From contig NZ_JACHMD010000001.1 of assembly GCF_014204835.1 (NCBI RefSeq), forward strand, positions 2,170,001 to 2,234,000: a DNA stretch of 64,000 bases, given 5' to 3'. The stretch's first letter is position 1. Each line of letters opens with the position of its first letter. The translations under genes and the position numbers were made by a program. Under the pieces are notes generated by a model that was not told where the DNA came from, did no database searches, and saw only the letters and a program-made list of their open reading frames with translations. Below are positions 38,765 to 42,710 of the stretch, one piece after another. The DNA is from Microbacterium marinum. GTDB lineage: Bacteria; Actinomycetota; Actinomycetes; Actinomycetales; Microbacteriaceae.

Positions 38765-41068
38765 TCAACCGTCTTCACCGCGGGACCGCCAGAGCCGGAT
38801 CCCCTCGCCGTCACGCCAGAGGGCGATGTCGCCGGACGAGTCGGTGCGGGCAACGATCGCCTGCTCCTCCCGAAGGAGGTCGAGGATCTCGTCTCGCGGG
38901 TGGCCGTACGTGTTCTCGCCGACCGTCACGAGGGCGACGGCCGCATCCAGCTGCCGGTACAGGCTGTGGTCCTGGTCGGCGCTGCCGTGGTGCGCGACCT
39001 TGACGACCGAGTACGTGCGATCGATCGTGCGGGAGGCGATCAGGGATCGTTGCGACGGGGCCGACAGATCGCCGAGGAAGATCGCGTCGGGGACGCGGCA
39101 TCCCGTGACGTCGATCACGACACTCGCATCGTTCCCGGATGGATAGACCGGGTCGCGCGGCTTCGGCCACAGCACACGCCAGCGGCACTCCCCCAGGACG
39201 CCGCCCTGACCGGCCGACACCTCCTGCGTCCGCGCGCCTGCAGAGGTGAACCGGGCGAGCATCGCGGTCGCCTCCGGGTCGGGCACCGGACCGTGCAGGA
39301 CGAGGTCCGCGCGCCCGACCAGGGCGTCCGCGCCGCCGCGATGGTCCATGTCGAAATGGGTCAACACGAGCACGTCGACGTGCTCGATCGCGAAGCGGTC
39401 GAGGCACGCGCTCAGGGGTTCCGGCTCCGGCCCCGTGTCGATGAGCATGATCGCGTCGCCGGAGCGGACGAGGACGGCGTCGCCCTGACCCACCTCGCAA
39501 GCCAAGATCGCCCAGTCGTCCGGTGCACGGGTCCGGTCGATGAGGGTCCGGAACGGGCCCGCGCCCGCCGCGACGACGATGATCGTGACGAGTGCCCACC
39601 CCGCCCACCGTCGCAACCGGTGCCGGCGTGTAGCGAGCACGATGCCGATCGCTGCTCCTGTCGCGGCGAGGGCGATGAGCCCCGGCATCCCTTCCAGCCA
39701 TCCGATGGAAGCCCCGGGCAGCCGCGCGGACAGGTCCGCCGTTCCCGCGATCCAGGCCGCAGGCAGCCACGCGATCGCCGCGAGCCCCTGCGCGAGCACC
39801 GGGAACGGCAGTGCGAGGCAGGACAGCAGACCGAGGACGGTCGCGGCGGGCGCTGCGGGACCCGCGAGCAGGTTCGCGAGCACGCCGACCAGGGGCACGG
39901 TCGGCTCGATCAGGATGAGCAGCGGTCCGCAGGCGAGCTGCGCCGCGAGCGGAACGGAGAGCGCGAGCGCCAGCGGGGCCGGCATCCATTTCGACATCCC
40001 GTCAGCGAGCGGCCCCGCGAACAGGAGCAGCGACCCTGTCGCGACGGCCGACAAAGCGAAGCCGAGGGATGCCGCGAGCCACGGATCGACGACGAGCAAC
40101 ACGCACACCGACGCGGACAGGATGGACATCCCCGCGCCGATACGTCCCAGGAGGACCCCGAGCATCGCGATCGCCGCCATCGCCCCCGCTCGGACCACGC
40201 TCGGTTCGGGTGAGACGAGCACGATGAACCCCACCAGTGTGATGAGTCCCGCGGCGACGCGGATGCCGCGGCGCGCCCCGCAGAGCGCTGCGATGCCGAA
40301 CGCGATCCCGACGACGAGCGCGCAGTTCGCCCCTGAGACCGCGGTCAGATGAGACAGCGATGATGCCTTCATCTGTTGATCGAGGTCCTCGGTGACGGCC
40401 GACGTGTCGCCCACGGCGAGGCCCGGGACGAGCCCTGCGCCCGGGTCGGGCAGGCCGTCGACCGCCTCGACCAGGCCCGTCCGCAGCGCGGCCGCGACGG
40501 CGAGCGGACCGGTCGGGGCTCGCACGAGCCGAATCGTGGATGCCTCGATCACGAGGACCTCACGATCAGCGGCATCCGCTCGAGACGCCGTTCCCGTCAC
40601 CTCGGCCTGAGCACCGAGGTCGAGCCCGGCCAGGCGCTCCTGCACGCGGACGAGCACGGGAGCCGAGACGGGCGTCGAGTCCGAGCCGATCGTCGCGGAT
40701 CGCGTTATCGCGTCGAAGCGGAATGCTGTCGCCGACCGTTCGATCTTCCCCACGACGTCGACGTTGAAGGTGACGCTGCGACCGCCGGTGATCTGGAGCC
40801 CCGACACCGCGTCCCGCGCAGGCTGGGCGACGGCGACGTGGGATGCCGTGGCCCCGGCGACAGCGAGCGCCACCGCGATGAGGGCGAACACCGTCGGCCC
40901 CGCGCGTGTCGAGGCGATCGCCAGTGCGAGGGCGGCGCTGACCCACAGCGCGACGGCGAGTGTCCCCGCGTGCTCCGGGAAGCTGATCGCCGCCCCGGCG
41001 CCCGCCCAGCCTCCGAGCGCGACCGGCAGCAACCGCAGATCGCGGCGCCGCGCGGCTCGCATCGTCAT
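38765..41068 (-). CDS. comEC: ComEC/Rec2 family DNA uptake channel
   Basis: A 767-residue polytopic protein. Several N-terminal helices and an OB-like external domain (about 90-190) are followed by the competence membrane domain (about 210-500) containing HLTAVSGANCALV. A C-terminal metallo-beta-lactamase domain has LTHFDMDHRGG and KVAHHGSADQDHS. It would translocate single-stranded DNA across the membrane. All expected parts are intact. In relatives comEA lies immediately upstream; here a 960-bp insert intervenes. Confidence 0.93.
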   Translation of the reverse strand: MTMRAARRRDLRLLPVALGGWAGAGAAISFPEHAGTLAVALWVSAALALAIASTRAGPTVFALIAVALAVAGATASHVAVAQPARDAVSGLQITGGRSVTFNVDVVGKIERSATAFRFDAITRSATIGSDSTPVSAPVLVRVQERLAGLDLGAQAEVTGTASRADAADREVLVIEASTIRLVRAPTGPLAVAAALRTGLVEAVDGLPDPGAGLVPGLAVGDTSAVTEDLDQQMKASSLSHLTAVSGANCALVVGIAFGIAALCGARRGIRVAAGLITLVGFIVLVSPEPSVVRAGAMAAIAMLGVLLGRIGAGMSILSASVCVLLVVDPWLAASLGFALSAVATGSLLLFAGPLADGMSKWMPAPLALALSVPLAAQLACGPLLILIEPTVPLVGVLANLLAGPAAPAATVLGLLSCLALPFPVLAQGLAAIAWLPAAWIAGTADLSARLPGASIGWLEGMPGLIALAATGAAIGIVLATRRHRLRRWAGWALVTIIVVAAGAGPFRTLIDRTRAPDDWAILACEVGQGDAVLVRSGDAIMLIDTGPEPEPLSACLDRFAIEHVDVLVLTHFDMDHRGGADALVGRADLVLHGPVPDPEATAMLARFTSAGARTQEVSAGQGGVLGECRWRVLWPKPRDPVYPSGNDASVVIDVTGCRVPDAIFLGDLSAPSQRSLIASRTIDRTYSVVKVAHHGSADQDHSLYRQLDAAVALVTVGENTYGHPRDEILDLLREEQAIVARTDSSGDIALWRDGEGIRLWRSRGEDG

Positions 41069-41403
41069 TTCGATAGGTTCGGGGAGCGCCGACGCCTCCG
41101 GCTCCGTCTACCGGCGATCAGGGGACGATATCGGTCATGGGGCACCGGTGGAGAATGAGAGCGAACGGCCTCGCCGCGCTTCCGACAGATCAGGGTCGGC
41201 TGATCGAAACGGTCGGGTGCGCCTCGGGGGTGAGGCCAGCATCGCCAACGACATCCGGATTTGCGTCACCATGCCCCTGGGCGCCGCTGATGCATCGTCG
41301 TCAGCGAGACGCCGAGGTTCCCTGAGCACCAGCGCTCGCAGAGGCGAGGCGGCCAACCCGGCCGAATGGGCGCACGTAGATGTCCGCCGAAGAGGGGACA
41401 GCG
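41069..41403. other. gene-free left part of the com-region insert
   Basis: No credible ORF on either strand. It contains the comEC 5' flank and then sequence of mixed, lower GC content leading to a SD-like GAGGGG at 41391-41398 before ATG 41404. I see no transposase, terminal repeat or clear promoter. Confidence 0.4.
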
Positions 41404-41689
41404 ATGATCGCAATCCATCGAATACATTCGCGTCAGGACGGCAAAGTCGGGGTGGGGCGCTACCGGCCTCACGGCTGTGTGTGCAGCCGCCGGCACGGCG
41501 GCGGGTGGGCCCATCGGAGCGGCTGCATTTGGCGCCGCCTGTCTGGCTATTGCAGGGTCCGGTGTGTACACAGCTGGCGTTGCGGACAACTCCAGCCCGA
41601 AAAGATGTCTTCAACTGACTATCACCTTTACTGTTATCACCTCGCCAGTACCTTGGTTCGATACGTATAGAGGGGGGAACTGCAAGTGA
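41404..41689 (+). CDS. Gly/Ala-rich hydrophobic small protein, bacteriocin-like; start uncertain (possible frameshift)
   Basis: The frame open from 41408 to the TGA at 41689 encodes a Gly-zipper-like hydrophobic core (GTAAGGPIGAAAFGAACL then AIAGSGVYTAG) and an AT-rich polar tail with two Cys, ending GGNCK. The only standard in-frame start is GTG 41477 (70 residues, no SD). ATG 41404, which does have a good SD, is one base out of frame; removing one base would give a protein of about 94 residues beginning MSQSIEYIRVRT. The stop overlaps the next gene as GTGA. Small size, composition and a coupled membrane partner suggest a bacteriocin-like or toxin peptide, by inference only. Confidence 0.45.
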
Positions 41690-41916
41690 AGGAGAATCGA
41701 AGCGCCAACCGTTTCCGGTACTTTTTCGCGGACACATGGTGGCGTATCACCTGGTTTGTCGGTGCCGTTGTCTGGTGCGCAGTGTTCAACACCGTTCTCG
41801 TGACTACAGATGCAGATCCGACGTGGATCGGTCCTGTCTCAGTGATCCCCCTTCTCGCGTTCGCCGCTGATGTGCTCCGTCGCGATCACGTCATGCGCCG
41901 GAACGAAACACGCTGA
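41686..41916 (+). CDS. small two-helix membrane protein, possible immunity partner
   Basis: A 76-residue protein with aromatic-rich N-terminus (RFRYFFADTWWRITWF), two hydrophobic segments (about 19-37 and 47-62) and a charged C-terminus (RRDHVMRRNETR). The GTG start overlaps the stop of the preceding small ORF, and AGGGGGG lies eight bases upstream. Codon use is more AT-rich than in neighbours. I do not recognise a family; position and topology resemble immunity proteins of small bacteriocins. Confidence 0.6.
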   Translation: MKENRSANRFRYFFADTWWRITWFVGAVVWCAVFNTVLVTTDADPTWIGPVSVIPLLAFAADVLRRDHVMRRNETR

Positions 41917-42026
41917 AAGCGCCCGCAGGGACCGCCCGCTAGACGCCGGCGGCCCCTGCTGGACGGTCCGCCTCGGTCATCCTCAAGGACGGTAGCGACG
42001 TCACCATCCCTGCGCGGTTCGACCAC

Positions 42027-42617
42027 TCACACCGTCACCAGGTCGCGGAGGGATTCGAGCATCTTCTCGCCGATACCGGGGACGGCCATGAGGTCGTCGA
42101 CGCTTGTGAACCGACCGTTCTGGTCTCGCCAGTCGATGATCCGTTGCGCGATCGCCGGGCCGACGCGCGGCAGGGTGTCGAGCGCGGCGACGTCTGCCGT
42201 GTTGAGGTTGACGCGGCCATCACCCTCCGGCGCCGCGGAGGTACCGGCATCCGTCCTCTCGTCGCCCTCGGCGGGGATCAGGAGCTGCTCACCGTCGCTC
42301 ACCGGCCGCGCGAGGTTCACGCCGTCGCGAGACGCCTTCTCCGAGAATCCCCCGGCGGCGGCGACAGCGTCGACGACGCGGGCATCCTGGTCGAGACGGT
42401 AGAGACCGGGGACGCGCACCTCACCCGAGACATGCACGTACACCGATGCCGGCGCCACCGTCTCGGAAACGACCTCGGGCACCGTGTCTACGGCTGACTC
42501 CGCGCCCGTCCGGACGATCCCGATCGCGATGGTGACCGCAGCAACGACGACCACGAGGACGACGGCGGCACCGATCGCCAGCCGACGTCGAGACCTCGGC
42601 ACCGTCTGCGCATCCAT
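42027..42617 (-). CDS. comEA: ComEA-family helix-hairpin-helix DNA-binding protein
   Basis: A 196-residue exported or membrane-anchored DNA receptor. One N-terminal membrane helix is followed by a SLBB-type domain (VYVHVSGEVRVPGLYRL) and a C-terminal HhH pair (VNLNTADVAALDTLPRVG, IGEKMLESLRDLV). It should hand DNA to ComEC. I start at ATG 42617 (GAGGAT 6 nt upstream); ATG 42644 is possible but its SD is too close. Confidence 0.9.
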   Translation of the reverse strand: MDAQTVPRSRRRLAIGAAVVLVVVVAAVTIAIGIVRTGAESAVDTVPEVVSETVAPASVYVHVSGEVRVPGLYRLDQDARVVDAVAAAGGFSEKASRDGVNLARPVSDGEQLLIPAEGDERTDAGTSAAPEGDGRVNLNTADVAALDTLPRVGPAIAQRIIDWRDQNGRFTSVDDLMAVPGIGEKMLESLRDLVTV

Positions 42618-42710
42618 GGCACGATCCTCGCGGCGTCGCACCATCCTCTCCGCACCCGGCGAAGGGACGGTGGACGAACGACGATCAGAGGTCCGCAGTG
42701 GAGAAGACGC

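Follow-up and report, generated by a model that had tools for sequence, protein, structure and literature searches.

Closticin 574 is made as a 309-residue pre-protein with a probable 27-residue signal peptide and an 82-residue mature C-terminal bacteriocin; it is probably processed outside the cell, and is called an unusual class II bacteriocin (PMC10888436). The closest closticin-like protein to have been synthesised, CLB of Bacillus altitudinis, had no activity on two indicator strains (PMC10888436), which counts against an easy generalisation of closticin-like activity. A primer for a closticin-like gene in the same source yields, on translation, a mature start of PDWSKIAA, and this predicted start fits cleavage between the D and P of a VADP motif (VAD/P). 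As described in PMC10888436, closticin 574 (Kemperman et al. 2003) is like the intact relatives of the locus described here in having a signal peptide, a long pro-region and a C-terminal peptide released after secretion. It differs from our copy, which is without the signal and pro-region, and from our type as a whole, in which the C-terminal domain is another one, with RNRAET in intact relatives, four cysteines and about 105 residues. The homology link to closticin 574 runs through the name annotated for a phage protein, not through the sequence of closticin 574 itself.

Further systems are comparable in part, by their published descriptions. The Cdz system of Caulobacter has a Gly-zipper antibacterial protein and a small transmembrane immunity protein, CdzI, a combination that may parallel ours, but Cdz uses type I secretion, has two toxins and is contact dependent (PMC5380434). 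Modular precursors whose C-terminal domain depolarises membranes, accompanied by immunity proteins, also appear similar; examples are the CDI ionophore toxins, whose immunity is polymorphic (PMC11630599), and EsxX of S. aureus (PMC12744356), which use other delivery systems. Polymorphic toxin systems (Zhang et al. 2012, PMC3482391) combine a constant N-terminal part, variable C-terminal domains and immunity genes, an organisation resembling that of the family found here; the terms closticin, DUF4258, DUF2283 and glycine zipper do not occur in 300,000 of the 357,715 characters of that paper. Type VI orphan immunity genes (PMC10539506, PMC10470768) are likewise retained without a toxin, and so offer a possible analogy, but they belong to type VI secretion in Gram-negatives.

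The locus lies in a window (the whole stretch of 64,000 nucleotides analysed) that corresponds to positions 2170001-2234000 of the single-contig, 3.12 Mb genome of Microbacterium marinum. The best explanation, on the sequence comparisons given below, is that a closticin 574-like, Sec-exported pro-bacteriocin gene and its coupled immunity gene came from a related actinobacterium, and that all that would remain in the lineage of the window is the complete immunity gene and the end of the toxin gene, coding for most of the C-terminal mature domain. We give a probability of roughly two in three to the reading of the insert as a horizontally acquired orphan immunity module with a truncated closticin-like toxin tail. 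The initial annotation had proposed a module of an undescribed type; a wholly undescribed type is not supported, the architecture being that of closticin 574. Features of the locus are collected in Table 1.

Table 1. Features at the comEA/comEC junction (window coordinates; a dot marks a feature without strand).
Feature	Position	Strand	Remarks
comEC (host flank)	38765-41068	-	start now ATG; GTG in relatives aligned at the junction
CGAGCCGCGC, near present comEC start	41050-41059	-	candidate partner of CGAACCGCGC
Insertion, comEC start (41068, -) to comEA stop (42027, -)	41069-42026	.	958 bp
ORF1 region, closticin-like 3' remnant	41441-41689	+	by profile homology; listed ORF 41477-41689
Purine-rich GAGGGGGG	41670-41677	+	8 nt ahead of ORF2 GTG; read from sequence
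ORF2, two-helix membrane protein, intact	41686-41916	+	76 aa, GTG start
CGAACCGCGC, on comEA side of insert	42012-42021	-	candidate partner of CGAGCCGCGC
Relic of ancestral comEC 5' end, directly behind comEA stop	42012-42026	-	G375 GTGAGTGGTCGGACCGCGCGGCGCCGCGA; window GTGAGTGGTCGAACCGCGC, then insert
comEA (host flank)	42027-42644	-	

In all eight of the closest relatives at this junction (G179, G015, G375, G291, G056, G360, G376 and G408; comEC identity 70-86%), comEA and comEC overlap by 4 nt (gap -4), whereas in the window they stand 958 bp apart. The check for empty comEA-comEC junctions in relatives that the initial annotation had proposed thus agrees with its view of a transferred module. 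For 28 relatives a gap could be computed, the position of their comEC starts being extrapolated from alignments; it lies between -13 and 68 nt in 27 of them and is 263 in G289, while a 29th relative (G180) gave no value. In a second set of more distant relatives the 27 values obtained range from -87 to 344, with two loci yielding none; the apparent gap of 344 bp is that of G029, a more distant relative whose own ORF2-type gene is located elsewhere. Of the ancestral comEC, the window has kept the opening 19 nt (GTGAGTGGTCGAACCGCGC), which overlap the comEA stop; the insert comes next, and then the ATG-start comEC. The window junction was also aligned with that of G015. The sequences CGAGCCGCGC and CGAACCGCGC, both GC-rich and short, are suggestive of a possible imperfect 10-bp target duplication. 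The insert DNA has no copy in 97 relatives apart from matches of 28-41 bp in three of them, and there is no Rfam match in 40900-42150. The GC content of 41404-41916 is 0.587 against a mean of 0.690 (sd 0.031) over 2540 overlapping segments of the same length (step 25), none of which is lower, so that the region is indeed AT-richer than its neighbours, as first remarked. The whole insert has 63.3% GC, and its two ends 67.0% and 71.8%.

Two short plus-strand frames, both antisense to comEA and comEC, overlap by GTGA at 41686-41689, as the initial annotation had it. Its first frame, read as a Gly/Ala-zipper hydrophobic peptide in a region given from 41404, needs correction: ORF1 is rich in Gly and Ala, but it starts at GTG 41477, and the ATG at 41404 belongs to another frame (ORF 41380-41670), not to the frame that has homologues. 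The latter is open from the stop at 41405-41407 to that at 41687-41689 and contains no ATG, GTG or TTG ahead of GTG 41477. Homology starts at about 41441 and covers positions 248-330 of 330 in the three-sequence profile A1 (E 7.1e-27); a C-terminal profile is matched over 23-105 of 105 (iE 8.9e-33), and most of the homologous C-terminal domain is therefore present. A pro-domain profile built from 62 leaders had no hit anywhere in the window (threshold E 1e-3). The Sec signal peptide, absent from the window copy, is present in intact relatives such as L071-L076, as judged by eye and not by a predictor. In a six-frame search ORF1 matched three relatives (E 3.9e-19, 7.6e-16 and 7.9e-14) at the end of long open frames of 555, 332 and 326 codons; a protein search with ORF1, in which only proteins of similar length were candidates, gave no match. 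Neither of the two ORFs, nor any of three precursors of the window or sister type, had a meaningful match in Pfam, NCBIfam, PADLOC or PHROG, weak domain matches such as fn3_6 at 0.036 in L024 being set aside.

The intact relatives are secreted proteins of about 310-335 residues, laid out as signal peptide, pro-domain, (Y/F)P(V/I)VADP and variable C-terminal domain, followed by a coupled small membrane protein. By homology, ORF1 is the 3' end of the gene for such a protein, lacking signal peptide and pro-domain, and its treatment as a complete small peptide gene was rejected. The intact peptide/immunity pair of the initial annotation is thereby replaced by a toxin gene without its 5' part, export signal and pro-domain. 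Against the closest intact relative examined, a protein from another genus (G570), the remnant is identical at 59 of 76 aligned positions although synonymous sites are saturated (pS 0.87), which indicates that the C-terminal domain is strongly conserved in general and that truncation in the window is probably recent. The frame is open and retains the four conserved cysteines, as would be expected if ORF1 were expressed from GTG 41477 as a leaderless bacteriocin in a working two-gene module. However, no signal peptide, pro-domain or ribosome site is seen, the start codon falls inside the conserved domain (after GWGATGLTA), and the window-type intact relatives read have the precursor form; we consider leaderless expression extremely improbable.

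ORF2 has two hydrophobic segments, with 19-residue Kyte-Doolittle peaks of 2.01 (from residue 21) and 1.67 (from residue 46), in line with its first description as a two-helix membrane protein. It thus has the membrane character expected of an immunity protein and also the expected position, as a small protein directly behind the toxin (GTGA overlap; 7/7 loci found from the toxin side). A protein search with ORF2 found three homologues of 85, 62 and 57% identity, the best of which (P0001, E 5.2e-39) is likewise 76 residues long. Run against 366 genomes from the genus, the ORF2 profile A2 hits 23, some of which had themselves supplied sequences to it; a draw of 249 from the family (window genome included in the draw) adds eight further genomes. 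Between ORF2 and the G570 partner 27 of 65 aligned residues are common, against the 59 of 76 for the toxin remnant. Comparison with the homologue in G375 gives dN 0.21 and dS 1.16 (dN/dS about 0.18, 72 codons); ORF2 is under constraint by these values, which take in divergence before transfer, possibly most of it. Plasmid records gave no match to ORF2, and 15 of them match part of the intact precursor L076, none over 80% of its length; in viral contigs the precursor had no relative, and ORF2 a single match of 14 residues. Because it is an intact member of the partner family of toxin-type precursors, ORF2 is a probable immunity protein; another role is also possible, given that a window-type toxin is missing nearby in 12 of the 23 genomes with an ORF2-type gene.

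Starting from the toxin, a match to A1 was obtained in 85 of 295 genomes of the genus, and 30 loci were read. The window-type C-terminus (102-106 residues where intact) is followed by an ORF2-type partner in 7/7 loci with downstream sequence (L071, L072, L073, L075, L076, L077 and G218, the last as L083/L119); in an eighth, L078, the contig stops short. Since five of the seven partners belong to the A2 alignment itself, A2 cannot serve to test them; when only the window ORF2 was used as query, the G040 partner was found at E 3.1e-7 and the G072 partner weakly, at E 0.027. Intact window-type pairs also occur in two other genera of the family (G570 and G541). The homology search thus finds that the pair recurs in relatives, rather than the lack of pairing that the initial annotation had named as speaking against it, and its suggestion of a bacteriocin-like gene with an immunity-like partner is supported by the homologues and the recurrent pairing. 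A sister C-terminal type (89-92 residues, mostly ending WWVDxYRGGPCR) is followed, by reading, by a different small membrane partner in 9/9 loci, and this second partner family usually has a W[FW]xxIT motif near its start. In G296 (L184) the sister-type partner is a fused double unit of 146 residues, as if two immunity genes had been joined.

The partner starts between -10 and +20 nt from the toxin stop in 16/16 loci with a hydrophobic partner, and at -4 in eight, as called by a script that chose starts near the stop and so favoured small offsets; 18 loci were given to it, and G407 (wrong frame chosen) and G218 (no frame found) were left out. Translation of the partner is apparently coupled to that of the precursor in the intact loci read. 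Mantel correlation of partner with precursor is 0.82 for the C-terminus and 0.82 for the N-terminus (n=13; without G407, G218, the window, G338 and G352, the last three having no or a partial N-terminus). The partner co-diverges with the whole precursor; a special tracking of the C-terminus was considered and dropped, as the test did not separate the two parts. Adjacency, apparent coupling and equal co-divergence with both parts would also suit a small membrane partner that helps to export, anchor or mature the secreted protein and has no part in immunity. However, the precursor comes with a signal peptide, many genomes have kept the partner by itself, and precursors with homologous pro-domains but different C-terminal types have partners of different families (DUF2283 following DUF4258, for instance); a helper function therefore seems to us quite improbable.

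If, as we prefer, the partner is an immunity protein, the intact relatives would work as follows. The signal peptide would export the precursor, the pro-domain would keep the Gly/Ala-rich helical C-terminal domain harmless, and cleavage at VAD/P would release that domain, which could then insert into the membranes of competitors (by helix 257-300 in the AlphaFold model of L076). The two-helix protein, translated by coupling at the toxin stop codon, would sit in the membrane of the producer and block the toxin. In the window strain, ORF2 alone would protect its host from neighbours making this type of toxin. The locus ties an orphan membrane gene to a definite and testable toxin class.

Among the 23 ORF2-bearing genomes, seven have a precursor including the pro-domain upstream (in one of them, G218, frameshifted), three (the window, G407 and G331) have only a C-terminal toxin fragment upstream, and G066 (L103) has an 18-residue stump of the toxin C-terminus two bases ahead of an intact ORF2-type gene. 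The remaining twelve show no window-type toxin in about 1.5 kb upstream, C-terminal matches at iE 0.025 or weaker being counted as chance; among these twelve, the precursor in G083 carries a different C-terminus, and the match in G292 is weak. In G338, G228 and G352, too, partner genes accompany truncated C-termini, here of related types. The toxin can therefore be followed through intact, frameshifted, truncated, 18-residue stump and absent states, with the partner retained. Three fragments, one stump and twelve toxin-less loci indicate that toxin loss with partner retention happened repeatedly; in this series the partner outlasts the weapon.

Decay of this kind could also mean that the insert is inert debris, the toxin remnant being dead and ORF2 open only through recent transfer. 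Truncation of the toxin gene would agree with this, as would the G331 homologue of ORF2, itself split between frames, and the conservation of the remnant at saturated synonymous sites, by which the truncation is probably recent. No sigma-70-like promoter was recognised in 40950-42150 with the sigma-70 consensus, and the same region has three terminator-like patterns against 0.5 expected, two of them inside ORF2 and on its strand, both points in favour of debris; a possible ribosome binding site of ORF2 can be read in GAGGGGGG. However, ORF2 is intact with its start kept, as is the length of its 85% identical homologue, dN is well below dS in the comparison with G375 (with most divergence perhaps predating transfer), and ORF2-type genes without a window-type toxin are stop-free in 11 further genomes (weak G292 match not counted). 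We regard the debris explanation as unlikely, and prefer retention of ORF2 as an orphan immunity gene.

In a related species, G375 (L191 4002-4229), an antisense ORF2-type gene lies between comEC and the next gene, without a toxin remnant. It is 64% identical to ORF2 and occupies the same operon region at a different gene boundary. Between the window and G375, dS is 1.16 for ORF2 against 0.30-0.67 for five neighbouring genes, which makes a single vertically inherited copy unlikely. No com gene was found within the 1.5-kb flanks in the other 21 ORF2-bearing genomes. The com location in both the window and G375 may reflect a hot spot, chance or relocation.

A contig scan with patterns from two conserved motifs returned 53 loci, 21 of them titled Microbacterium, the others including Streptomyces, Arthrobacter, Leifsonia, Cellulomonas, Clavibacter, Clostridia and candidate-phylum assemblies, and the C-termini behind VADP differ widely among them. 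The VADP motif was a selection criterion in A4 and in the contig scan, so that its presence there proves nothing; in A3, whose 11 rows were chosen by homology, ADP does not vary. Pfam was run on 37 proteins. Of the 46 numbered L132 and higher, 34 were included and 12 dropped as being close or short; L092, L095 and L099 were added by hand for looking like DUF4258 or DUF2599 types. Five of the 37 have a match at E 0.01 or better, all behind VADP (2/34 without those added by hand). Behind pro-domain and VADP are found DUF2599 in L095 and L099, DUF4258 in L092 (G254), DUF6973 in L156 (a Parcubacteria assembly), and a prokaryotic phospholipase A2 with a ricin-type lectin in L170 (a Saccharibacteria assembly). 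In G254 the DUF4258 protein, which also has a weak Colicin E5 match (E 0.15), is followed at -4 by a DUF2283 protein, an arrangement that we take to resemble toxin/antitoxin pairing, and the DUF4258 precursor and DUF2283 protein are plausibly a toxin/antidote pair with a Sec-type precursor.

The family is also carried by phages. BN12 (L182) and the Microbacterium phage Min1 (L183) encode a pro-domain, VADP or TADP and a C-terminus, with the gene for a small hydrophobic protein behind. The BN12 member, which adjoins holin and amidase genes and reads AFPIVADPSWWQIAKCAGA, is named 'putative closticin' by its annotators; as annotated, it has 219 codons and no signal peptide by eye. It is 32.4% identical to L076 over 49% of the latter (E 7e-8), the match lying in the pro-domain, the part absent from the window copy.

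An AlphaFold model of L076 (11 sequences; best pLDDT 73.3, other four 52.8-63.9; pTM 0.63) has a beta-rich pro-domain, helices at 245-253 and 257-300, and strands at 307-314 and 322-329. Foldseek against the PDB gave no match at E of 0.001 or less and only weak beta-sandwich matches; among the best 50 of 999 (E up to 10) the query TM-score is at most 0.30, the top ones being in glycosidases. We do not use this result as evidence, although it would sit comfortably with a precursor family of non-toxic surface or development proteins whose variable C-termini reflect something else, as would the small share of scanned members with a Pfam match. Such a non-toxic role is improbable in view of the closticin annotation and architecture, the DUF4258/DUF2283 pair, the phospholipase A2 and the carriage by phages.

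The family as a whole, as opposed to the window copy, has the constant N-terminal part, differing C-terminal domains and matching downstream genes of polymorphic toxins. We tentatively suggest, at somewhat less than even odds, that the VADP pro-domain marks an undescribed class of simply Sec-secreted polymorphic antibacterial toxins spread over Actinomycetota, Bacillota, candidate phyla and phages. In such a class, a single conserved processing site would be followed by exchangeable domains (membrane-active, nuclease-type, phospholipase and others), every one of them paired with a separate immunity gene; orphans of these immunity genes would have been kept repeatedly in Microbacterium, twice in the com operon. 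If this is true, bacteriocin protection and DNA uptake would stand side by side at com. The pattern suggests that closticin 574 may be one member of a large modular secreted-toxin family of soil and plant-associated bacteria, and bacteriocins and their immunity proteins could then be predicted simply, by finding the VADP pro-domain and taking the C-terminus and the next gene. Searches of the open-licence literature, judged by title or start of abstract, turned up no account of the wider family in actinobacteria. The genome of the window itself encodes a second family member (L124, about 1537-2337; match 1167833-1168522), which is apparently intact and has a 45-residue C-terminus behind VADP that ends IWGGLGAAVLACALGK.
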